A DNA stretch of 38,077 nucleotides from a virus, in the IMG/VR virus record IMGVR_UViG_3300024891_000047, positions 1 through 38,077 of that record, one strand, 5' to 3'. The notes beneath the pieces were generated by a model. That model was not told the DNA's origin, did not search any database, and saw only the letters and a program-made list of their open reading frames with translations. This document shows positions 7,344 through 34,930 of the stretch, piece by piece. The position numbers and the translations under genes were made by a program. Position 1 is the first letter of the stretch; the number at the start of each line of letters is the position of its first letter.

Positions 7344-7837
7344 TTGCGGCCATCCTCTGTATAAAAATTGATTAGCGCGTCCAGCCGGGCTCGGCAGGTC
7401 TCGTGACTGCCTTGGGCGGCAGCAATCCATCCGGCGACGTCGGTATCGGTGGCAATGGCGGTACTTTCTGCAACAGGTGCGCCGGGGGGCTCGGGCACGG
7501 CAGTAGTAGTGGTTTCGCGGGCGCGGTTGAGCAGCCCGACAGTAGCGCTATTAAGGCAAGCGCGGCCGGTAGTAATTTTTTTAAGCGCATCGGATTTTTC
7601 CAGGGTGGTTTGGGTTAACTCAAATTCGGTTTTTGCCAGCTGGGCCGATAGCCCATCGGCCTTGGCTTGCGTGGCGGATAAACGATCTAACGACAATTGC
7701 GAAGCAATCGCGGCATCTTCAGCTTGCTCTGTTTTAATCGCGGAAATTTGTACGCTGTTGATCCAGCCACTCACCAACCAACTAAAACCGCCACCCAGCA
7801 GCGCGCCACACAGGGCGACAATCGCTAATAAATTCAT
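7340..7837 (-). CDS. Rz: Rz-like inner-membrane spanin
   Basis: 165 aa from ATG 7837, overlapping the DUF4406 stop codon. One N-terminal membrane segment (LLAIVALCGALLGGGFSWLV, residues 3-22) is followed by a long periplasmic helix (residues 25-90: SLDRLSATQAKADGLSAQLAKTEF...), then a cysteine-containing, TP-rich C-terminal part. This is the i-spanin layout: anchored in the inner membrane, it pairs with the Rz1 lipoprotein to disrupt the outer membrane at lysis. The o-spanin gene is nested inside it in another frame, which strongly supports the call. Confidence 0.85.
   Translation of the reverse strand: MNLLAIVALCGALLGGGFSWLVSGWINSVQISAIKTEQAEDAAIASQLSLDRLSATQAKADGLSAQLAKTEFELTQTTLEKSDALKKITTGRACLNSATVGLLNRARETTTTAVPEPPGAPVAESTAIATDTDVAGWIAAAQGSHETCRARLDALINFYTEDGRK
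7372..7590 (-). CDS. Rz1: Rz1-like outer-membrane spanin lipoprotein, nested in Rz
   Basis: 72 aa encoded entirely within Rz in a shifted frame. It has a basic start (MRLKKLLP), a hydrophobic signal and lipobox LLSGC with the lipidated cysteine at residue 20. The mature part is proline-rich (about 14 prolines in 52 residues: PLLLPCPSPPAHLLQKVPPL...). That is the o-spanin hallmark. With Rz it forms the spanin complex across the periplasm. Confidence 0.85.
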   Translation of the reverse strand: MRLKKLLPAALALIALLSGCSTAPAKPLLLPCPSPPAHLLQKVPPLPPIPTSPDGLLPPKAVTRPAEPGWTR

Positions 7838-8187
7838 TTTGTAACCTCTGCCTGTTTGGCGCATCTGTCCCGCAACTTGTAATCAAACTGCAGGGCATCC
7901 TCAATGGAGTAGCGCGGAATCTTTAAATAACTGGCAACCAGGTTTTCAACACTGGCGCCTTTAGATGCACGGTAACCCGGCAGCAACACCACGCAATCAC
8001 AGGCCAGCATCTGTGTTAATGACAGACGCATATAGCCCTCCCAACTGCCGCATGGCGGTTGTTGGTTTTCCGCAGGGTTTTCCACAACAAAGCCACGCGC
8101 CCGCAACTGTGCCGCAGCTTCATTAAATGCCGGGTAATTAAACTCAGGCAGGCCCGACATCGGTCCGGCTAAATAAATGCGTGTCAT
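7834..8187 (-). CDS. DUF4406 family protein (nucleoside deoxyribosyltransferase-like)
   Basis: 117 aa. It opens with RIYLAGPMSGLPEFNYPAFNEAA, the DUF4406 signature, and continues LRARGFVVENPAE and LACDCVVLLPGYRASKGASVENLVA, as in the nucleoside 2-deoxyribosyltransferase fold. Phage members are common near lysis and packaging genes; the substrate is not established. It is the first gene of the leftward late operon, with GGGAG 5 bases before ATG 8187. A GGAAACGTTTCC palindrome lies 57 bases upstream of the start. Confidence 0.85.
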   Translation of the reverse strand: MTRIYLAGPMSGLPEFNYPAFNEAAAQLRARGFVVENPAENQQPPCGSWEGYMRLSLTQMLACDCVVLLPGYRASKGASVENLVASYLKIPRYSIEDALQFDYKLRDRCAKQAEVTK

Positions 8188-8244
8188 AACGAGCTCCCAA
8201 AACGAGCTTGCAGGTTACGCGCGCGCGAGGTGTTTTAGCAGCCG

Positions 8245-8256
8245 GGAAACGTTTCC
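8245..8256. promoter_or_regulatory. Putative late activator site (copy 1) before leftward late operon
   Basis: Perfect 12-bp palindrome GGAAACGTTTCC in the gap between the divergent leftward (8187) and rightward (8346) gene starts. It is identical to the site at 21696. As the site is symmetrical it could serve either direction. The spacing to the leftward start (57 bases) matches the other three copies. I infer a binding site for the Mor-like late activator; the -10 element cannot be fixed by eye. Confidence 0.65.
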
Positions 8257-8345
8257 AGCGCGGGCAATAGGCGGGGGTTGGCGTATCGTTTTGGCATGCC
8301 AATTTGTTGGGAGTACCGATATGGTCAATAGCAGAGATATTAAAA

Positions 8346-8668: not shown

Positions 8669-8829
8669 TTGATATCAATAAACATAAATTACTTGAGCAA
8701 GCGCAGGAACTTACTTATGCAATAGAGCGTTGCGGAGCCAGTGTAGAAATTACGCATGCTGTCGTTGAGTCGCAAAAATTGCTACAGGATTTAGATAATT
8801 TTTTAAAAATAGAAGGGGTAATTAAATGA
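8665..8829 (+). CDS. Small helical protein with TTG start
   Basis: 54 aa, reading MIDINKHKLLEQAQELTYAI and ending DLDNFLKIEGVIK. The start TTG at 8665 lies 6 bases after GGAGG (8654-8658), the strongest ribosome binding site of this cluster, and no ATG is available in frame. The last codons overlap the next start as ATGA. The protein is one or two amphipathic helices with no membrane segment. Similar short helical proteins occur beside phage membrane genes, but I cannot name a family. Confidence 0.6.
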   Translation: MIDINKHKLLEQAQELTYAIERCGASVEITHAVVESQKLLQDLDNFLKIEGVIK

Positions 8830-9395
8830 TGTTTATTTTAAATAGATTGCGCGGCACCTGGAGCTGGATGGCTAAAGTGGCAGGTGTGTTACTCGGCCTG
8901 CTGTTTGGCGTTATTACCGATAACCCATACCTGGGTTTGGCGGTGGCCATCGGGTACATTGCCGGGGAGTCATGGGGCTGGGGGGACTGGATAGGCGGTT
9001 TAATCGACGGCCGCGACTTTGTCGGCGCAGAGGGCCGCAATAACGGCATCGCCTGGCTAGCCGAAAAAATAGTGGCGTTTAACTACCCCACCCAGGGGCG
9101 CTCATTAGCCGACAACGTCAGGCGCTACAACATTGCCGCCTTAATCATCCGGGGCGTTTATTGGTGGGCACCAACACTCGGGCCGCTGGCCTGGGCGTTT
9201 AACCCCATCGAAGTTACCGTCGGCATCGTGTTTTTGTCCCTGTTTTGGCCGGTATCCATCTGGCTGGCACAAGAGACAAAATTCAGCATCCCCGGCTTGG
9301 TATCTGATACCTGGTCACGCAGCGAGGTAATCTACGGCGTTGCGCAAGACCTCGTCTTTACGCTGCTAATCGCACACTACTTATTGGGGGTTTAA
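8826..9395 (+). CDS. Multi-pass membrane protein
   Basis: 189 aa. Hydrophobic segments: about residues 15-45 (MAKVAGVLLGLLFGVI, NPYLGLAVAIGYIAGES), 100-125 (IAALIIRGVYWWAPTLGPLAWAF), 128-148 (VTVGIVFLSLFWPVSIWL) and 170-187 (VIYGVAQDLVFTLLIAHYLL). A glycine/tryptophan-rich loop (GWGDWIGGLIDGRDF) lies between. Start at 8826 overlaps the previous stop (a second ATG is at 8829), with AGAAGGGG upstream. No catalytic motif is seen. It may be a lysis-associated or inner-membrane phage protein; I do not recognise a named family. Confidence 0.65.
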   Translation: MMFILNRLRGTWSWMAKVAGVLLGLLFGVITDNPYLGLAVAIGYIAGESWGWGDWIGGLIDGRDFVGAEGRNNGIAWLAEKIVAFNYPTQGRSLADNVRRYNIAALIIRGVYWWAPTLGPLAWAFNPIEVTVGIVFLSLFWPVSIWLAQETKFSIPGLVSDTWSRSEVIYGVAQDLVFTLLIAHYLLGV

Positions 9396-19578: not shown

Positions 19579-20037
19579 ATGGCTGATCTAATCCGTCATT
19601 ATCGTCAGCTAGTAGGCATCGCCAAAGGCTGGGCAGAGAAAAACCTGTCTGGCTGGGATGATGAGATACACCGCGCGCTGTTAGCCCGGCATGGTGCAAT
19701 TGAGGTTGCAGGCCGCATTACTGCCAGTAGCCTCAACCTAACGCAACTGGGCGCGGTGCTGGATGACTACGTGCAACGCGGCTGGCCACGGCACAAAGCG
19801 TTTTATCGGGGCGGCAATACATCGACCAAGCCTAAAGCGGTATCGCCGCAAATAGCGCTGCTGGTCAAGCTGTGGGGGCGTCTGGGGCAAGCGGGCAAAA
19901 TTGATAACGCCAGCCGGCAAGCCTTGCTGGCCTTTTGCGCCCGGCAAACCGCTCACAACGTACCCGACCTGGACAGCCTGACCGATGCTGAGCGGCAAGC
20001 CATCATAGAGGCGCTAAAAGCCTGGCTGGGGCGGTAA
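19579..20037 (+). CDS. GemA-like regulatory protein (DUF1018)
   Basis: 152 aa. DUF1018/GemA pattern: DLIRHYRQLVGIAKGWAEKNLSGWDDEIHRALLARHGAIE, SASxLNLTQLGAVLDDYVQRGWPRHKAF (here ITASSLNLTQLGAVLDDY), then a C-terminal helical domain LIALLVKLWGRLGQAG...LDSLTDAERQAIIEALKAWL. In Mu, GemA modulates host gene expression; it precedes mor there as it does here. The neighbour order GemA-Mor supports both calls. Confidence 0.85.
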   Translation: MADLIRHYRQLVGIAKGWAEKNLSGWDDEIHRALLARHGAIEVAGRITASSLNLTQLGAVLDDYVQRGWPRHKAFYRGGNTSTKPKAVSPQIALLVKLWGRLGQAGKIDNASRQALLAFCARQTAHNVPDLDSLTDAERQAIIEALKAWLGR

Positions 20038-20041
20038 CACC

Positions 20042-20743
20042 ATGAAAACGCCTGTCGTCTCTGATGATTTGCCAACCACGTTGCGGCCTGTGTTGCGCGC
20101 GATAGTTTTAGCCCTGGGTGAGTCTGGGGCCAGAGACTGGCTGCGAGCCTACGGCGGCGGCTGGGTTTACATACCACCTCATGATGATGAGCAGGCACAT
20201 TTACGGATCAGCCTGAGTACAAAAGAGGCCGCGCGGTTAATCGATGCCCTTGAGCCCTATTTATCAGCTCAGCGTTATGTGTTGATACCAGCGCCCAGGC
20301 AGATTGCTAAAGCGCGGGTACCGGCTGTAACTGAGGTGTTTCCGGAGGTTGACCCTGACCTGTTAGATTCGCTGCCCCCCATTTTGCGAGCAATCGTCAG
20401 GGCGCTGGGCTATGCCCGTGCCAGCGAATGGCTGCAGGATCACGGCGGGGTAAATATCCATATCCCACTGCATAAACCCAGGGCGCTGGGTCTGGATGAG
20501 GATGAGCTAAAAAGACTTAGGCAGGTACTGCAGCCGCACCTTGACAGCAATAACCGCCTGTGGTGTCCCAAAGCCGACAAGCTGATGGCTAAAGCTCGCA
20601 ATGCCTGCATTATCAACAACGCCCATCGGGAGAGCATCGCCCAGCAGGCCCGCATTTACAAACTATCCAGCCGCCAAATCACCAACATCCGTAGTGAGGG
20701 CGTCAACTGGCAACAAAGCGATTTATTTGGAGAGCTGCAATGA
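20042..20743 (+). CDS. Mor-family transcription activator with duplicated N-terminal domain
   Basis: 233 aa, against 129 for Mu Mor. Residues 10-94 and 111-188 are two copies of one unit: LPTTLRPVLRAIVLALG...GGGWVYIP...LEPYLSAQRYVLIPAPRQIAKAR and LPPILRAIVRALG...GGVNIHIP...LQPHLDSNNRLWCPKADKLMAKAR. The GGGxVYIP strand is the Mor dimerisation element. Only one helix-turn-helix follows (190-220, HRESIAQQARIYKLSSRQITNI). Mor and C activate middle and late promoters by binding dyads next to the -35 region. No separate C gene is seen, so this is the best candidate for binding the GGAA-N4-TTCC sites. Confidence 0.8.
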   Translation: MKTPVVSDDLPTTLRPVLRAIVLALGESGARDWLRAYGGGWVYIPPHDDEQAHLRISLSTKEAARLIDALEPYLSAQRYVLIPAPRQIAKARVPAVTEVFPEVDPDLLDSLPPILRAIVRALGYARASEWLQDHGGVNIHIPLHKPRALGLDEDELKRLRQVLQPHLDSNNRLWCPKADKLMAKARNACIINNAHRESIAQQARIYKLSSRQITNIRSEGVNWQQSDLFGELQ

Positions 20744-21695: not shown

Positions 21696-21707
21696 GGAAA
21701 CGTTTCC
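21696..21707. promoter_or_regulatory. Putative late activator site (copy 2) before protease operon
   Basis: GGAAACGTTTCC, identical to copy 1, 60 bases before ATG 21768. The following AGC is also shared with the plus-strand flank of copy 1, and CCGG-type bases precede both. This is where Mu has the C-dependent promoter P-I before its protease gene. Confidence 0.7.
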
Positions 21708-21767
21708 AGCATTATTGTTTTTCCCCAATCAACGGACAATCACCTCAACACATTTTTTGAGGCTGAT

Positions 21768-22772
21768 ATGTCCACACCCCACGCTCCCAAACTTGCCGCA
21801 TTGGCGTTTGAAATTACCGCTGGTAACGGTGTACCTACCGAAGCGCACCTATTGCCGGTTGGCCCATTTCGCGCAACCGACGGGCGTCCGGAAGATGCCG
21901 ACGCCTGGCAATTAGACGCCACTATTGCAGCGGCGGTTATTGCCCACATGGCGGATGTGCAAAACGACACCTTGATCGACTACGAACACCAAAACCTACA
22001 CGCTGAATGGAATGGCCAGCCGGTGATTGCCGCAGGCTGGTTTCATGATTTGGAATGGCGTGAGGGCAAAGGCCTATATGCCGTCGGCGTCGACTGGACT
22101 AGCAAGGCCAAAGGGCACATCGTTGCTAAAGAATATCGTTACATCAGCACCGTTTTTTATTATTACGAGCGCACCGGCGAGGTGCTGGAGATTATCTCCG
22201 TAACACTTACCAATACCCCTGCATTAGACGGCCTAGACAGCCTAAGCGAGCCTGCGCTTGCCGCGCTATCCAAACGATTTTCTTTGCCCACACTTACCAA
22301 CCCGGAGATTGACATGCCAGACCCAACCCAATTAGCCGCACTCACTGTCGAGCGCGATAGCTTAACCACTAAAGTCACTGCACTGACGATTGAGCGCGAC
22401 AGCCTGTCAACACAGGTGGCCGCACTCACCACCGAGCGCGACACGCTTAAAACCCGAGTAGATGCGATTGAGGCCGAAAAAGCTCAGGCCGCGTTGGCTG
22501 CTGAGCAAACCCAAAAGGCCGATCTGGTAAAAGCCGCTTTAACCGACGGCCGCTTGCCGCCAGCGCTTAAAGACTGGGCTGAAAAACGCAGCCTGGCTGA
22601 TTTAACCGAGTACCTGGGCAGTGTTAACCCGCTGGCGTTGTTAAACAAACAAGCGGGCGATGAGCATACGACTAACGCCGCTGCGCTATCAAAAGAGCAA
22701 GCCGACATCGCCGCCAAACTGGGCGTAACCGCGGAAGAGTTTTTAGCAACCCAGCAAAAAAACGCTGGCTAA
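21768..22772 (+). CDS. I: Mu gpI-like head maturation protease and scaffold
   Basis: 334 aa. The N-terminal half (residues 1-165) matches Mu-like prophage I protease: HAPKLAALAFEI, PTEAHLLPVGPFRATDGRP, ATIAAAVIAHMADVQNDTLIDYEHQ, AAGWFHDLEW, YRYISTVFYYY. It is a serine-type protease that cleaves the scaffold and itself in the procapsid. The C-terminal half is the coiled-coil scaffold with three near-repeats of 14 residues (TVERDSLTTKVTAL, TIERDSLSTQVAAL, TTERDTLKTRVDAI). First gene of the rightward late operon. Confidence 0.9.
   Translation: MSTPHAPKLAALAFEITAGNGVPTEAHLLPVGPFRATDGRPEDADAWQLDATIAAAVIAHMADVQNDTLIDYEHQNLHAEWNGQPVIAAGWFHDLEWREGKGLYAVGVDWTSKAKGHIVAKEYRYISTVFYYYERTGEVLEIISVTLTNTPALDGLDSLSEPALAALSKRFSLPTLTNPEIDMPDPTQLAALTVERDSLTTKVTALTIERDSLSTQVAALTTERDTLKTRVDAIEAEKAQAALAAEQTQKADLVKAALTDGRLPPALKDWAEKRSLADLTEYLGSVNPLALLNKQAGDEHTTNAAALSKEQADIAAKLGVTAEEFLATQQKNAG
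22314..22772 (+). CDS. Internal-start scaffold protein (Mu gpZ-like)
   Basis: 152 aa in the same frame as the protease, from ATG 22314 (MPDPTQLAALTVERD) with GGAG 6 bases upstream. It contains only the coiled-coil scaffold part. Mu makes gpZ this way from within gene I, so an abundant scaffold product separate from the protease is expected here too. Confidence 0.65.
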   Translation: MPDPTQLAALTVERDSLTTKVTALTIERDSLSTQVAALTTERDTLKTRVDAIEAEKAQAALAAEQTQKADLVKAALTDGRLPPALKDWAEKRSLADLTEYLGSVNPLALLNKQAGDEHTTNAAALSKEQADIAAKLGVTAEEFLATQQKNAG

Positions 22773-23704: not shown

Positions 23705-24367
23705 ATGGCTATTTACGTAAGAGTTAATCCACGCTCTCAGTTAGAGAGTCGCTACCGTGCCGGGCTGGAGTTTGGCGCTGACTGGACAGCAATCGATGTC
23801 GACGCCGCTGACCGTGCTGCGATTGAGCAAGATCCGTATTTAGAGGTAAGCGAAAGTGCCCCGACAGAAATTGAAGCAGTGGCGGTTGAAACTGAATTGT
23901 CGCCGGCAACATCAGCTGATGGTAATAGCTATAACTATCAGTCTGGGCAGGCGCCAGAAGGTTTTGAATGGGTATTAAAGCCCAATTTAGACGACGTGTC
24001 GGCAGACCTATTGAATAACCCACCCTCGGAAAATGCGGATGGGGCATTGGCACAAGAAGTTGGTGCCGAATCAGCCACAGTGGATAGCAGTGGCGATGCC
24101 CCGGCGGTTGTTGATGCAGTCATTGCTGAGGCTGCGCCTATTGATCTGGTCGAAGCTGTCGCGGCACCTGCCGACCAGCCACAGGCCGACGAGTTATATC
24201 AGGCTGTTAAAGCGGCTGTTGCCACGCTGGATAAAGACATCCCGGCAAACTGGCTAAAAGATGGCCGCCCAGCTACCAGACCACTAGAGGAGATCATCGG
24301 TAAAACCGTGTCCTCCGGCCTACGCGATTTGGTTTGGGCTGACATCCGTACCGAGGCGGGCGAGTAA
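23705..24367 (+). CDS. Mu gp35/FluMu-like head-associated protein
   Basis: 220 aa. The N-terminal 50 residues (VRVNPRSQLESRYRAGLEFGADWTAIDVDAADRAAIEQDPYLEV) fit the FluMu N-terminal domain. A long acidic, alanine-rich linker (50-160) follows, and a C-terminal helical domain (DELYQAVKAAVATLDKDIPANWLKDGRPATRPLEEIIGKTVS) typical of FluMu gp35. The same N-terminal domain reappears in the tail-operon protein at 27196. Position after the coat protein suggests head decoration. Confidence 0.75.
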   Translation: MAIYVRVNPRSQLESRYRAGLEFGADWTAIDVDAADRAAIEQDPYLEVSESAPTEIEAVAVETELSPATSADGNSYNYQSGQAPEGFEWVLKPNLDDVSADLLNNPPSENADGALAQEVGAESATVDSSGDAPAVVDAVIAEAAPIDLVEAVAAPADQPQADELYQAVKAAVATLDKDIPANWLKDGRPATRPLEEIIGKTVSSGLRDLVWADIRTEAGE

Positions 24368-27195: not shown

Positions 27196-29244
27196 ATGGC
27201 TATCGTCTACGCACGCGTTAACCCATCATCACAACAGTCTGAGCATGTCCGCGTAGGCGTGGTGTTTACTACCGCATGGCAGTCCGTTGATGTCGATGCA
27301 GCTACCCGCACCGCGCTGTTTGCCGACCCGTTTTTGCAGGCGAGCGATACTGATCCAGGGGGCAGTTCTGGCGTAACGATTAACGAAGACAACCCGACTA
27401 AAGTCCGGACGTATAGCGCTCTTGATAAGCGCCCGGCAGCGGCTGTTTTTGGTGTTGGGGTTGCTCAGGTTGGCGGGGTATTGTCGGTATCAAATGGCAG
27501 CAGTTGGAGTAGTGTTGGTAGTGGGGGTGCTAATCTGCGATTAAAAACGTTAGTTATCGGCGACTCGCTTGTCACGCAAGGTATCGTTACCGGCACGGCT
27601 GCAGCACCACAACTTATCGGTAGATCTGAGTCGCATTTAGTTAATTTTTTTGCCGGCGGCGTGCTGGAGTTTCCGGAAACATCAGCGATAGTCCAGGCTA
27701 CCTACGCAGGCCATGCTGGTATTTCGCGAGACAGCCATTATAGTTACTCGGGGGCAACATCATCAGCTATCCTAGCCGATATTGATGCGTATCTAATACC
27801 ATCGCTGCAAGCAAGCAAGGTTATATATGACCTGTTGCTCATACCGGCACTATTTGATAATGATATTTCCGCAGCCATCCCAACAGCTACCTCTATCGCC
27901 AACGCAAAATCAATTATTGCTAAGCTAAAAAGCATTTACCCAGACATTTTAGTTGTTATTGGCACATCCAGACCTAGTTCGTTTTTTGACACAGCGCCAG
28001 AAAAGGCGCTATTTGCTGCTACGTATGCGGCTGTTTTAGCTCTGGATAACGGCAGTACTATCAGGGCCTATGCACAGGGCTACGACTATGCCAGTGCAGA
28101 TGGTACAACGCCAGTTGTCATCGGTGTAACGGGGACAATATCTGGCACAACCATGACGATAACATCAGTTAATAGCAATCCAACTGGTATTAAATTGCAA
28201 ATCGGGATGCAAGTGATTGATGCCGGTCACGCCATTACTAGTGTCCCTGATAATCTTGGCGGCATCGGAGTTTATGGGGTTACTACTGGCCTAACTGTTT
28301 CCGGCAATTTTATAGTGATGCCATACACAGATGGCGATGGAGCGGGACTAGGCGGCATACATACAAATGGTTTTGGCACCTCTTTAAACGCTCGCAAAGC
28401 AGCGGCAGTTATTAAACAGCTGGGGGCTAGTAATAAAACTAGAAACCTAATTTTGTCAGGCATTAAGGGCCTGGTCGGGTCGACTGCAGTAAATGCAACG
28501 ACTAACGTGACCGGCACTAGACCGCCGGGTGTTACATTTGCAGGATCGGCAACATCAACATTAGTCGCCGAGGCATTACAACCGGGGTTAAGACTATCGT
28601 ACTCTGCGATTGGTGATTCGGCAGTTATGCAAGATTTGGCGTATTTGGCATTTGATATCTACACCTTGCCCCAAGCAGTTGATGGGTATCGGATGATTGT
28701 TCGCGCGCGGATAGTCTCTGGGGCGGACTATATTGCACAAATTGATCTAGCTAATAGACAAACTGACAACGGAGTTTTGTTAAACCCACTTAATACATGG
28801 TTTAGCAATGGCACTGGAGCTGCTGGGGGCATTACTGGCGTTATCTATCAGGATGGTGATGAGCTCACATTTATTAGCCCCGTTATTAGATCTGCTGGCG
28901 TTGGTGCATTAATAACAGCGATTACCAGCTATTTGCATGTACGTGCAAAAGCAAAAACGCCTGCTGACGTGGCTATTGTTGTTGATTTATTGGATGTTGG
29001 TTATGAGTTAGTAACTGACGGTGCTGAGATAGCAACACTAGTGGCTGGTACTGTAACAATTAGTGATAGCAGAGTACGTACAGGGTCTAAGATTCGTTTT
29101 TGGCGGGTAATTGATGGCGGTACTGTAGGATCGTTAAAAGAGACTGCTAGGGTATCCGGCACATCAGTGACAATCGGCTCTTTTAATGCCGCTGGGGCTG
29201 CCAATGCGGCTGATACGTCGCAGATACGGTATGCAATTGAGTGA
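27196..29244 (+). CDS. SGNH hydrolase-like virion protein with FluMu-type N-terminal domain
   Basis: 682 aa. Residues 1-52 repeat the N-terminal domain of the gp35-like protein (MAIVYARVNPSSQQSEHVRV...DVDAATRTALFADPFLQASD). Residues about 115-405 look like an SGNH/GDSL esterase: TLVIGDSL with Ser124, IPALFDND (216-223) as block III, and GLGGIHTNGFG with His389 as block V; a strand-rich insert lies at 305-375. Residues 440-682 are a strand-rich C-terminal module. Mu has no gene between tube and chaperone. It probably sits on the virion and deacetylates a surface polysaccharide (inference). SD is weak. Confidence 0.6.
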   Translation: MAIVYARVNPSSQQSEHVRVGVVFTTAWQSVDVDAATRTALFADPFLQASDTDPGGSSGVTINEDNPTKVRTYSALDKRPAAAVFGVGVAQVGGVLSVSNGSSWSSVGSGGANLRLKTLVIGDSLVTQGIVTGTAAAPQLIGRSESHLVNFFAGGVLEFPETSAIVQATYAGHAGISRDSHYSYSGATSSAILADIDAYLIPSLQASKVIYDLLLIPALFDNDISAAIPTATSIANAKSIIAKLKSIYPDILVVIGTSRPSSFFDTAPEKALFAATYAAVLALDNGSTIRAYAQGYDYASADGTTPVVIGVTGTISGTTMTITSVNSNPTGIKLQIGMQVIDAGHAITSVPDNLGGIGVYGVTTGLTVSGNFIVMPYTDGDGAGLGGIHTNGFGTSLNARKAAAVIKQLGASNKTRNLILSGIKGLVGSTAVNATTNVTGTRPPGVTFAGSATSTLVAEALQPGLRLSYSAIGDSAVMQDLAYLAFDIYTLPQAVDGYRMIVRARIVSGADYIAQIDLANRQTDNGVLLNPLNTWFSNGTGAAGGITGVIYQDGDELTFISPVIRSAGVGALITAITSYLHVRAKAKTPADVAIVVDLLDVGYELVTDGAEIATLVAGTVTISDSRVRTGSKIRFWRVIDGGTVGSLKETARVSGTSVTIGSFNAAGAANAADTSQIRYAIE

Positions 29245-29720: not shown

Positions 29721-29732
29721 GGAAACAGTTCC
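29721..29732. promoter_or_regulatory. Putative late activator site (copy 3, weaker) before tape measure
   Basis: GGAAACAGTTCC, two central differences from copies 1 and 2, inside a larger inverted repeat (CGCGGGAA ... TTCCCGCG). It lies 64 bases before ATG 29797. The spacing agrees with the other sites, but the mismatches and nearby terminator-like hairpin make it the least certain. Confidence 0.4.
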
Positions 29733-29760
29733 CGCGTAACAATTCGCCGCCCAACCCAAT

Positions 29761-29796
29761 AAACTCCGGTTACATCCCAGTCACCGGAGTTTTTTT
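29761..29796 (+). terminator. Terminator-like hairpin covering tape-measure ribosome binding site
   Basis: 10-bp perfect stem AAACTCCGGT (29761-29770) and ACCGGAGTTT (29783-29792), 12-base loop, T run to 29796, then ATG 29797. The only ribosome binding sequence (GGAG, 29786-29789) is inside the stem. It may terminate part of the tail transcript, and in the read-through RNA it would mask the tape-measure start. Confidence 0.7.
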
Positions 29797-31872
29797 ATGT
29801 CTAATGCCGCCGCCGATGTTGAAGTCCGGCTTAAGTTTGTTGATAAGGGCGCAACGTCAGCCATTGCCAAATATGCCAAAGAAGTTGAGAAATCGACTAA
29901 GCAAGCCGAAACCGCCGTTACTCAATCCAATACACGCCAGCGAAATAGTTACGACCGGCTATCACAAGCCCGAGAATCGTTGGGCGTACGCTCAGAAAAG
30001 AAAATCCAATTAGAAATATCAAGAACTGAAAGCGCGTATAAGCGCCTTGAAGCCTCCGGCACCCTAAGCCAAGCTCAGCTGGCCCGCGCTGCCGACAAAA
30101 CCAAAAGCAAAATCACCACGCTGACCAATGAAATGGGCAAGCTGACCCATGAGCAAGAAAAAGCCGCGCGGGCTGCTAAAGAGTTTGAAAAAAACCAAGG
30201 GCGGTTAAGGTTTGGTGCATCTGCAGCGGTGGGTGTGGGCGCAGCGGGTTATGCGCTTAAGGGGCCAATTGGTAAAGCCATGAGCTTTGATGAGATGTTG
30301 GTTAGTATGTCAAATACCGCATTTGCTGAGCGCGATGCACGTGGACGAATTGCCGGCAGCAAAGATCTTGAGTCAGTAATTAACCGGTCTATTGATCTTA
30401 AGCGTGGCGGTGGTGGTACCCGCGATCAAGCCGCCGAAGCATTAAGCGCCATGCTGGGGAAAGGCACGTTAGGTTTTCAACGTTCTATGGATTTTTTACC
30501 AACGGTAATGCGCACGGCAACCGGAGCCAGCGCTAATCCGTTAGATATTGCGGAGCTGTCCAGCGCGTTGTACGGACAAGGCGTCGTCAAGTCGGACCGC
30601 GAATTAAAAACAGCGCTGAATATGATTACCGCATCCGGCCAAGCGGGCGGCTTTGAGATTAAGGATCTATCCAAGCATTTGCCGGGGCAGTTAGCGGTTG
30701 GTAAATCTGCTGGTATGACTGGGTTAGATGGACTGCAAAAGATTTTGACGATGAATCAGGCCGCCGTGCTAACCAGTGCAGGCAATGATGATGCTGGCAA
30801 CAACGTTAAAAACCTGTTGAGTAAGTTGGCATCAAGCGACACAGCAAAAGACTTTGAAAAATCCGGCCGTGGCGATTTAGCGCAATTTTTAGTTAAACAA
30901 CGGTTGAAAGGGATTGATGCAGTTGACGCGTGGCAAAACCTGATCGACAAAGAAGCTGAGAAAAGCCCGGTATTGAAAACCGCTTTAACAAAACTAAAGG
31001 CATCGAAAGATAAGACCGAGCAGGCTTCGCTGATCGAGTCAATATCGCAACTGTCCGAGGGCAATGTAATTGGACAGTTTTTTCAAGATATGCAGGCGCG
31101 CAGCGCATTGTTTGGCATGCGCAATAAGGACGTTGTTGGCCGGGTAGATTCTGCGATCGGTAAAAACCGCACGGAGTTTGGTGCTAACGATGTCAACTGG
31201 GAGACCATGGCGGGTACAACCTCGGCGCAAGTACGCAACGCTGAACAAGAAGCGCAAATCGCTCAAAAAACAGCGATGGACAAGCTCACCCCCACTATCA
31301 GCAAGACCGCCGAGTTATTTACTGATTTAGCACAAAAGTTTCCAGGCATGACCTCGGCTACTATTGCCACTGTGCCACCCCTAATTGCCCTGGCCGGTGC
31401 TGCTGGAGTATCGGCACTGGCGCTGGGTGGTGGGGCTGCAGGTGGGGGTGGTATCGCCGCTAAAGGCGCAAGCATGTTGTCAAAGCTGGGTTCGCGTGGC
31501 AGTTTGTTAGGTGGCGCAGCATTGGCAGGCAGTGTTGCTGTTGACGCGGTTACCGAAAAAGACTCGGCATTAAATCGCTATGGATCGGCAGCCTTGCGCG
31601 GTGCCGGTACCGGGATGTTATTGGGCAGTGTTGTCCCCGGCATTGGTAATGCAACTGGTGCAGCGGTGGGCAGCATTGGCGCATTAATTGCCCAAGCTAT
31701 TACTGATTTTAGTGCTAACAAAACCCCAGAACCGCAGCCACCCACCGAGCTTAATGCAAAATTTGAGTTACTGGCCCCGCCCGGCTTCCAGTTTATCTCC
31801 AAAGGCATGCAAACAACTGGCCCCGGCAATGTCAATGTCAATACCGGCAACGTTTTTAACGGAGCCCCCTAA
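29797..31872 (+). CDS. Tail tape measure protein (Mu gp42-like)
   Basis: 691 aa. N-terminal coiled coil (about 15-145: KGATSAIAKYAKEVEKSTKQAETAV...), then the tape-measure core (FDEMLVSMSNTAFAERDARGR, GGGGTRDQAAEALSAMLGKG, IAELSSALYGQGVVKSDRELKTALNMITASGQAGGFEIKDLSKHLPGQL) and C-terminal hydrophobic, glycine/alanine-rich segments (about 520-560 and 600-640) that can enter the host membrane. Length sets tail length: about 690 residues at 1.5 angstrom gives roughly 100 nm. ATG at 29797 is preceded by the hairpin. Confidence 0.9.
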   Translation: MSNAAADVEVRLKFVDKGATSAIAKYAKEVEKSTKQAETAVTQSNTRQRNSYDRLSQARESLGVRSEKKIQLEISRTESAYKRLEASGTLSQAQLARAADKTKSKITTLTNEMGKLTHEQEKAARAAKEFEKNQGRLRFGASAAVGVGAAGYALKGPIGKAMSFDEMLVSMSNTAFAERDARGRIAGSKDLESVINRSIDLKRGGGGTRDQAAEALSAMLGKGTLGFQRSMDFLPTVMRTATGASANPLDIAELSSALYGQGVVKSDRELKTALNMITASGQAGGFEIKDLSKHLPGQLAVGKSAGMTGLDGLQKILTMNQAAVLTSAGNDDAGNNVKNLLSKLASSDTAKDFEKSGRGDLAQFLVKQRLKGIDAVDAWQNLIDKEAEKSPVLKTALTKLKASKDKTEQASLIESISQLSEGNVIGQFFQDMQARSALFGMRNKDVVGRVDSAIGKNRTEFGANDVNWETMAGTTSAQVRNAEQEAQIAQKTAMDKLTPTISKTAELFTDLAQKFPGMTSATIATVPPLIALAGAAGVSALALGGGAAGGGGIAAKGASMLSKLGSRGSLLGGAALAGSVAVDAVTEKDSALNRYGSAALRGAGTGMLLGSVVPGIGNATGAAVGSIGALIAQAITDFSANKTPEPQPPTELNAKFELLAPPGFQFISKGMQTTGPGNVNVNTGNVFNGAP

Positions 31873-34526: not shown

Positions 34527-34930
34527 TGTTGAATTTAGTGCAAATTGATAACGGCGTGTTTGACCTGGTGTTTGCTGATCCTGCGCAAACCGACACCGAT
34601 GCTGCTGTGGCCACTCTTATATATACAGTGCTGTTTACCGATGCCGAGGCACCTATCAACCGAGCCCCGGACCGATTTACCCGGCGCGGCTGGTGGGCGA
34701 ATGCTGACGCGGGCAGCGGTATTTGGCATGTGCGCAGACAAGGCTTAAGCCCGGCCGCACGGCGTGAGGCACTAAACATGGTGCAACAAGCGCTGCAAAG
34801 CCATAGCCCGGCGGTATCTGAGGTAGTTGTATCAGAGCGAATCGCGCCGCCGGGAAGTGTTTCCAGTCTGTTTATAGACATCGCTGGCTTGCACAATGGC
34901 ACAAATTTTTTATTCAGCACGGCATTATGA
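34526..34930 (+). CDS. Baseplate protein gp46-like
   Basis: 134 aa. GP46 family pattern with early LVQIDNGVFDLVFAD and FTRRGWWANADAGSGIWHVRRQGLSP. It is the wedge-associated W-type protein (related to T4 gp25). One-base overlap with the spike gene and ATGA overlap with gp47. A degenerate late-activator site lies inside its 3' end. Confidence 0.88.
   Translation: MLNLVQIDNGVFDLVFADPAQTDTDAAVATLIYTVLFTDAEAPINRAPDRFTRRGWWANADAGSGIWHVRRQGLSPAARREALNMVQQALQSHSPAVSEVVVSERIAPPGSVSSLFIDIAGLHNGTNFLFSTAL
34853..34864. promoter_or_regulatory. Putative late activator site (copy 4) before baseplate J gene
   Basis: GGAAGTGTTTCC, two central differences from copies 1 and 2, with shared flanks (CCGG before, CAGT after the TTCC, here TTCCAGTC). 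It lies 62 bases before ATG 34927, inside the gp46 gene. TATAGA at 34873-34878 could be a -10. It may give an extra internal late promoter for baseplate and fibre genes. Confidence 0.45.

Follow-up and report, generated by a model that had tools for sequence, protein, structure and literature searches.

A two-unit Mor/C-type activator with a single HTH, the probable late activator of a Mu-like transposable phage with probable methanotroph hosts

The window, i.e., the whole stretch of 38,077 nucleotides of viral DNA that was analyzed, encodes a protein best read as a new variant of the Mor/C activators, to which an oligomerization unit devoid of an HTH has been added. Our main reading, held at a probability of roughly 0.55, is that this protein is the sole Mor/C-type late activator of its phage and that the added unit most likely changes the assembly of the activator or offers a surface to the polymerase. 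The gene product probably turns on all late genes, both the particle-building and the lysis ones.

The record is a Mu-like transposable phage; its 38 kb carry the genes of transposase A, transposition protein B, head, tail and lysis proteins, and among named phages KS10 and TJ1 have the most similar transposases (36%). A close relative of the activator gene was found in a Methylomonas koyamae prophage, so that the host is likely a Methylococcales methanotroph, and Methylococcales are the probable hosts of the phage. Elsewhere in the record, the products of 23705-24367 and 27196-29244 share similar starts of about 55 residues (MAIYVRVNP... and MAIVYARVNP...), and the product of 27196-29244 (682 aa), encoded among the tail genes, contains a GDSL-like LVIGDSLV motif and has no PHROG match.

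The open reading frame of the activator is intact. Its parts and the preceding gene are as follows:

19579..20037, plus strand: gemA-like gene immediately 5' of the activator gene, as in Mu and KS10
20042..20743, plus strand: two-unit Mor/C-type late activator gene (233 aa), assigned by homology
20066..20317, plus strand: unit 1 (residues 9-92), HTH-less copy of the oligomerization part, orthologous to unit 1 of prophage G035
20111..20176, plus strand: repeat r1 of unit 1 (ALGESGARDWLRAYGGGWVYIP)
20207..20293, plus strand: repeat r2 of unit 1 (ISLSTKEAARLIDALEPYLSAQRYVLIPA), counterpart of the Mu Mor pre-HTH strand
20318..20356, plus strand: inter-unit linker, with pLDDT below 50 at residues 89-98
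20402..20467, plus strand: repeat r1 of unit 2 (ALGYARASEWLQDHGGVNIHIP)
20486..20572, plus strand: repeat r2 of unit 2 (LGLDEDELKRLRQVLQPHLDSNNRLWCPK)
20573..20722, plus strand: HTH DNA-binding domain, whose counterpart in sister phage L002 best matches Mu C and Mor

Smith-Waterman self-alignment, a check proposed by the preceding sequence-only reading, revealed the homology of the two units, with 33 of 80 residues identical between unit 1 (residues ~9-92) and unit 2 (~106-186) and a score of 126 against a mean of 25.6 (sd 4.2, maximum 48) in 2000 shuffles; unit 1 differs from unit 2 at 59% of residues. Each half taken alone matched PHROG 836, 'late transcriptional activator' (4.7e-6 and 5.2e-16), and the whole protein matched it with 84 bits (E 1.7e-23). 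On the 133 positions of this profile unit 2 spans 10-132 and unit 1 spans 9-68, and the HTH follows unit 2 only. The sequence-only reading had described exactly such a Mor-family activator, with two tandem units and an HTH after the second alone; this description is borne out, and the unit boundaries it gave (10-94 and 111-188) were correct to within a few residues. The PHROG 836 plan consists of one unit (two alpha-beta repeats) and one HTH, whereas the window protein has two units, four repeats and one HTH and is thus a variant rather than a plain member of the family. The match to the Pfam Mor family, PF08765, started at residue 173 and scored 23.9 bits against a gathering cut-off of 24.9; among annotated relatives, KS10 (22.0) and TJ1 (20.4) fell below this cut-off and B23 (43.4) above it. 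No NCBIfam model matched the window protein or its relatives.

The same two-unit gene is carried by IMG/VR contig L001, which is 100% identical to the window over 7.9 kb, and the same architecture is present in a separate prophage, G035; therefore, the two-unit gene is not an assembly error. Production of two proteins from the gene, the long one and a short form composed of unit 2 and the HTH, appears very improbable: an in-frame GTG at residue 99 does lie near the start point of the one-unit gene in L002, but it is not preceded by a Shine-Dalgarno sequence at a fitting distance and has no counterpart in G035. This internal start was accordingly judged unconvincing.

One element of the sequence-only reading, namely that a GGG-x-VYIP-like stretch in each unit corresponds to the strand by which Mor dimerizes, did not survive alignment with Mor and C. 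The stretch occupies residues 38-45 in unit 1, and its unit 2 equivalent is GGVNIHIP at 135-142. In Mu Mor, GGGQVYIP stands immediately ahead of the HTH and aligns with AQRYVLIP of unit 1 and SNNRLWCP of unit 2, not with GGGWVYIP; these two segments, both without glycines, take the position of the pre-HTH dimerization strand motif GG-x-h-h-IP of Mor/C. Consistent with this are the start of the Pfam Mor match at residue 173 and the position of residue 81 of the one-unit model, which superposes on residue 74 of Mor (1rr7). Mor's strand thus matches the second strand of each unit, and GGGWVYIP, as the alignment indicates, is part of an extra, earlier strand. In one-unit PHROG-836-type proteins the first and second strand regions proved to be the same motif, roughly iGxxaaxxLvxxyGGxxvxVPk, the comparison of the two regions giving an hhalign probability of 97.7% (E 2.4e-12) versus 13.9% at most in 20 column shuffles (51 aligned sequences, of which hhalign kept 43). 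As each unit consists of two alpha-beta repeats, the window protein comprises four such repeats and one HTH.

The AlphaFold2 (AF2) model of the full protein, built with 11 sequences, has the order helix-strand-helix-strand in both units; its quality is moderate (mean pLDDT 71, pTM 0.47), and it is unreliable on the packing of the units. Two unrelated folds, named earlier as the outcome that would speak against tandem duplication, were looked for and not found. Foldseek with the full window model returned nothing usable, and in the structural comparison of this model Mu C ranked first, though weakly (Z 4.0). For L002, the one-unit sister (89% identical), the HTH domain had Mu C as its top solved match (Z 8.2, with 53 residues at 1.8 A), followed by Mor (Z 6.5). 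The only strands in the AF2 model of the L002 protein are 41-43 and 75-77 (pLDDT near 80); since a strand assignment in the DSSP string requires a partner, these two presumably pair together, which suggests that strand pairing occurs within each unit. This bears on the proposal of an internal pseudo-dimer, in which unit 1 would pair with unit 2 of its own chain as two Mor chains do, and one or two chains would bind DNA. Homology of the units and their common predicted order of helices and strands agree with it. However, each unit already holds two alpha-beta copies, and if the strands of the L002 model must pair mutually, unit 1 is unneeded as a partner; we consider the pseudo-dimer rather unlikely.

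Most relatives of the gene have one unit. Sister phages L002 and L013 carry at the same locus a one-unit gene of 134-136 aa starting at the point that matches the linker of the window protein, and the DNA of L002 is 84-92% identical to the window across most of the aligned length. One-unit genes were also found in six prophages (G003, G124, G180, G060, G144 and G158) and in contig L094, the closest one-unit activators, again at the same locus, being 64-90% identical to that of L002. The search for other two-unit members, suggested with the original proposal, was run on phage, plasmid and viral-contig collections and on genome samples (311 Methylococcales genomes, with the phrog_836 pass over 251 of them, and 369 other Gammaproteobacteria); such members exist but are rare, namely the identical copy in L001 and the 234-aa product of G035, whose gene lies in the same gene order. 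The other long open frames that gave hits, L058-L064 and L069, are one-unit genes with an unrelated upstream reading. In two Methylococcales genomes (L066, 1-600; L067, 2600-3250), the HTH of Mor-like proteins is followed by a further ~80 residues at the C-terminus. No paper on tandem Mor proteins was found in the literature searched.

The units 1 of the window and G035 are 50% identical and have GGGWVY[IV]P and ISL..EA.RLID.LEP in common. In phylogenetic trees they form a clade (support 98/99), while each unit 2 groups with the one-unit proteins of its own phage lineage, and a sister placement of the window and G035 was rejected both by unit 2 with the HTH (p-AU 2.7e-45) and by gemA (4.8e-7). 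Because of this conflict between trees, unit 1 arose once and was later moved or lost, with at least two changes, and behaves as a conserved module that is either present or absent. In G035, unit 1 opens with 36 residues similar to the native beginning of one-unit genes, which indicates recombination between repeats. Identity of the two unit 1 copies at codon positions 1, 2 and 3 is 0.59, 0.72 and 0.35, respectively (chance at position 3, ~0.26), and the second and third positions differ significantly (chi-square p 7.7e-7). Judged by these codon positions, in two two-unit sequences with saturated silent sites, purifying selection acts on unit 1 at the protein level. The view of unit 1 as an idle remnant of a recent duplication, to which its occurrence in just two lineages might point, is hardly credible, as unit 1, although diverged from unit 2 at well over half of its residues, persists in two phages whose silent sites are saturated, and its second codon positions are conserved. 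Another conceivable role is poisoning of competitors, in which unit 1 would enter mixed oligomers with the activator of a related phage that co-infects the cell or already resides in it. Such a role would fit the finding that closely related sister phages sharing a host group may have or lack unit 1, and that unit 1 and the phages have had separate histories; nevertheless, self-poisoning would be expected unless unit 1 favored foreign partners, and we regard this explanation as quite unlikely.

GGAA-N4-TTCC occurs four times in the window versus 0.43 expected, and an xAxxxT hexamer (GACAAT, TAAACT, CACAAT, TAACCT or TATCGT) stands exactly 27 nt from each palindrome; the combination of palindrome, 27 nt and -10-like hexamer occurs five times versus 0.04 expected. 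The candidate promoters are:

21696..21740, plus strand: candidate late promoter of the head operon, GGAAACGTTTCC, 27 nt, GACAAT, 5' of the protease gene at 21768
29721..29765, plus strand: candidate late promoter, GGAAACAGTTCC, 27 nt, TAAACT, 5' of the tape measure gene at 29797
34853..34897, plus strand: candidate late promoter, GGAAGTGTTTCC, 27 nt, CACAAT, 5' of the baseplate wedge gene at 34927
8212..8256, minus strand: candidate leftward late promoter of lysis/packaging genes, GGAAACGTTTCC, 27 nt, TAACCT
8245..8289, plus strand: candidate rightward promoter using the same palindrome (8245-8256), 27 nt, TATCGT

With the hexamer placed at -12 to -7, the center of the palindrome falls at -45.5. 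The same five promoter positions were found in 10 of 10 phages, one-unit and two-unit, with the spacing fixed at all 50 sites, so the GGAA-N4-TTCC sites put forward by the sequence-only reading are real and conserved; those in prophages were selected by position among genome-wide matches, and chance matches occur elsewhere in the bacterial records. The 50 sites have the core GGAAAYRTTTCC and an invariant G two bases outside it, and core variants do not divide two-unit from one-unit phages. The G035 sites stand 5' of genes orthologous to those of the window for the protease, tape measure, baseplate wedge and 2-deoxyribosyltransferase. Since one-unit and two-unit phages have the same palindromes, unit 1 apparently left the DNA target unchanged, which would be unexpected if the HTHs were held in a new geometry by the pseudo-dimer considered above. 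The region 8212-8289, with one palindrome between two divergent -10-like hexamers at 27 nt each in 10 of 10 phages, is a candidate bidirectional late promoter. Its leftward operon begins with a nucleoside 2-deoxyribosyltransferase-like gene (phrog_355; 7834-8187, minus strand) ahead of the spanin gene, kept also in G035 and G124; a rightward transcript from 8245 would head to a membrane-protein-like open reading frame (8826-9395) without a PHROG match.

Six-frame searches of the record with phrog_836, phrog_532 and PF08765 matched this locus only, revealing no other Mor/C-type gene and upholding the earlier remark that no separate C gene is visible. A second phrog_836 match was likewise absent from the one-unit L002 and G003. 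The suggestion that the protein does the work of both Mor and C therefore stands as far as a sole Mor/C-type gene is concerned, but not as to the two-unit structure being the cause, L002 and G003 being alike in this respect. As these two phages have one phrog_836 gene and the same five positions, a single activator for all late promoters is apparently general in the clade and independent of unit 1; on comparison of the sequences, the combined role predates unit 1. Most relatives being without unit 1, it is unnecessary for activation as such. Some elements carry both kinds of activator: on a single contig, L068 (G078:C79), ~1.6 kb separates a PHROG-836-type activator from a Mu-type Mor.

Mu Mor (129 aa; PDB 1rr7, 9l0y) resembles the window activator in the fold of the HTH domain, in the location of its gene right after gemA and in the replacement of -35 by a palindromic site, at about -44 to -46, predicted in the case of the window; in Mu, a 16-bp dyad element centered at -43.5 is bound by Mor and replaces -35 (PMC4390567). 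In contrast to the window protein, each Mor chain contains a single GG-x-h-YIP strand motif and a single unit; the site sequence of Mor is different, and Mu has a separate C. Mu C (140 aa; PDB 9l0x, 9vw8) provides, via L002, the best solved match of the DNA-binding domain and activates several late promoters, as is predicted for the window activator, but it is the product of a middle promoter, separate from Mor, and each of its chains has a single alpha-beta motif. Burkholderia phage KS10 shares the split-capsid genome plan of the window, and gp27 (annotated as Mor, phrog_836-like), its only annotated Mor-type gene, also follows gemA and encodes two alpha-beta repeats and an HTH; gp27 has, however, one unit only and is 22% identical to the L002 unit. 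The one-unit activators of the sister phages and Methylococcales prophages listed above share with the window the locus and the five promoter positions and differ by the absence of unit 1. By chain count, 9l0x and 9vw8 contain four C chains and 9l0y four Mor chains, 9l0x and 9l0y being titled E. coli transcription initiation complexes.

In the mechanism we propose, the activator would be produced at the end of the early operon, and its HTHs would bind the C-N-GGAAAYRTTTCC-N-G palindrome, by analogy with Mu as a dimer or a larger assembly. The palindrome, centered at about -45.5, would substitute for the -35 element, and the bound activator, again as in Mu, would recruit the host RNA polymerase to all late promoters. 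The lineage would have gained an N-terminal second HTH-less oligomerization unit (two alpha-beta repeats) that leaves DNA recognition as it is, the sites being recognized by the HTHs of unit 2. Two chains might then contribute two HTHs and four oligomerization units, and we propose for unit 1 a tetramer-like role, as the covalent equivalent of the four Mu Mor or C chains on the promoter complex; alternatively, it may be an additional surface for RNA polymerase. In the narrower version of the latter idea unit 1 would be a platform for RNA polymerase (alpha-CTD, sigma) or a phage or host regulator with the oligomer unchanged. Mor requires contacts with the alpha- and sigma-CTD (PMC4287176), and a conserved signature, GGGWVY[IV]P...ISL..EA.RLID.LEP, sets unit 1 apart from unit 2; on the other hand, there is no known partner, and conservation in unit 1 extends to repeat-core glycines and strand residues instead of being confined to a separate surface patch, which makes a pure platform doubtful. 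More generally, and tentatively, Mor/C-type activators may operate with a core of four alpha-beta repeats per promoter complex, to which four Mu chains would contribute one each or two one-unit chains two each; with its four repeats and one HTH in every chain, the two-unit form would build this core with fewer HTHs or double it, and phages would swap the module by recombination while the regulon stays constant.

The near-identical phage pairs that differ by one activator domain, with apparently identical promoters, constitute a natural experiment on oligomerization in class II activation, and the four activator chains of the 2025 Mu Mor and C promoter complexes offer a structural setting for the two-unit form. 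The conserved sites provide a defined and testable late regulon for transposable phages of methanotrophs, in which, as far as their genes and sites indicate, the two-step Mor-then-C cascade of Mu would be replaced by a single activator.
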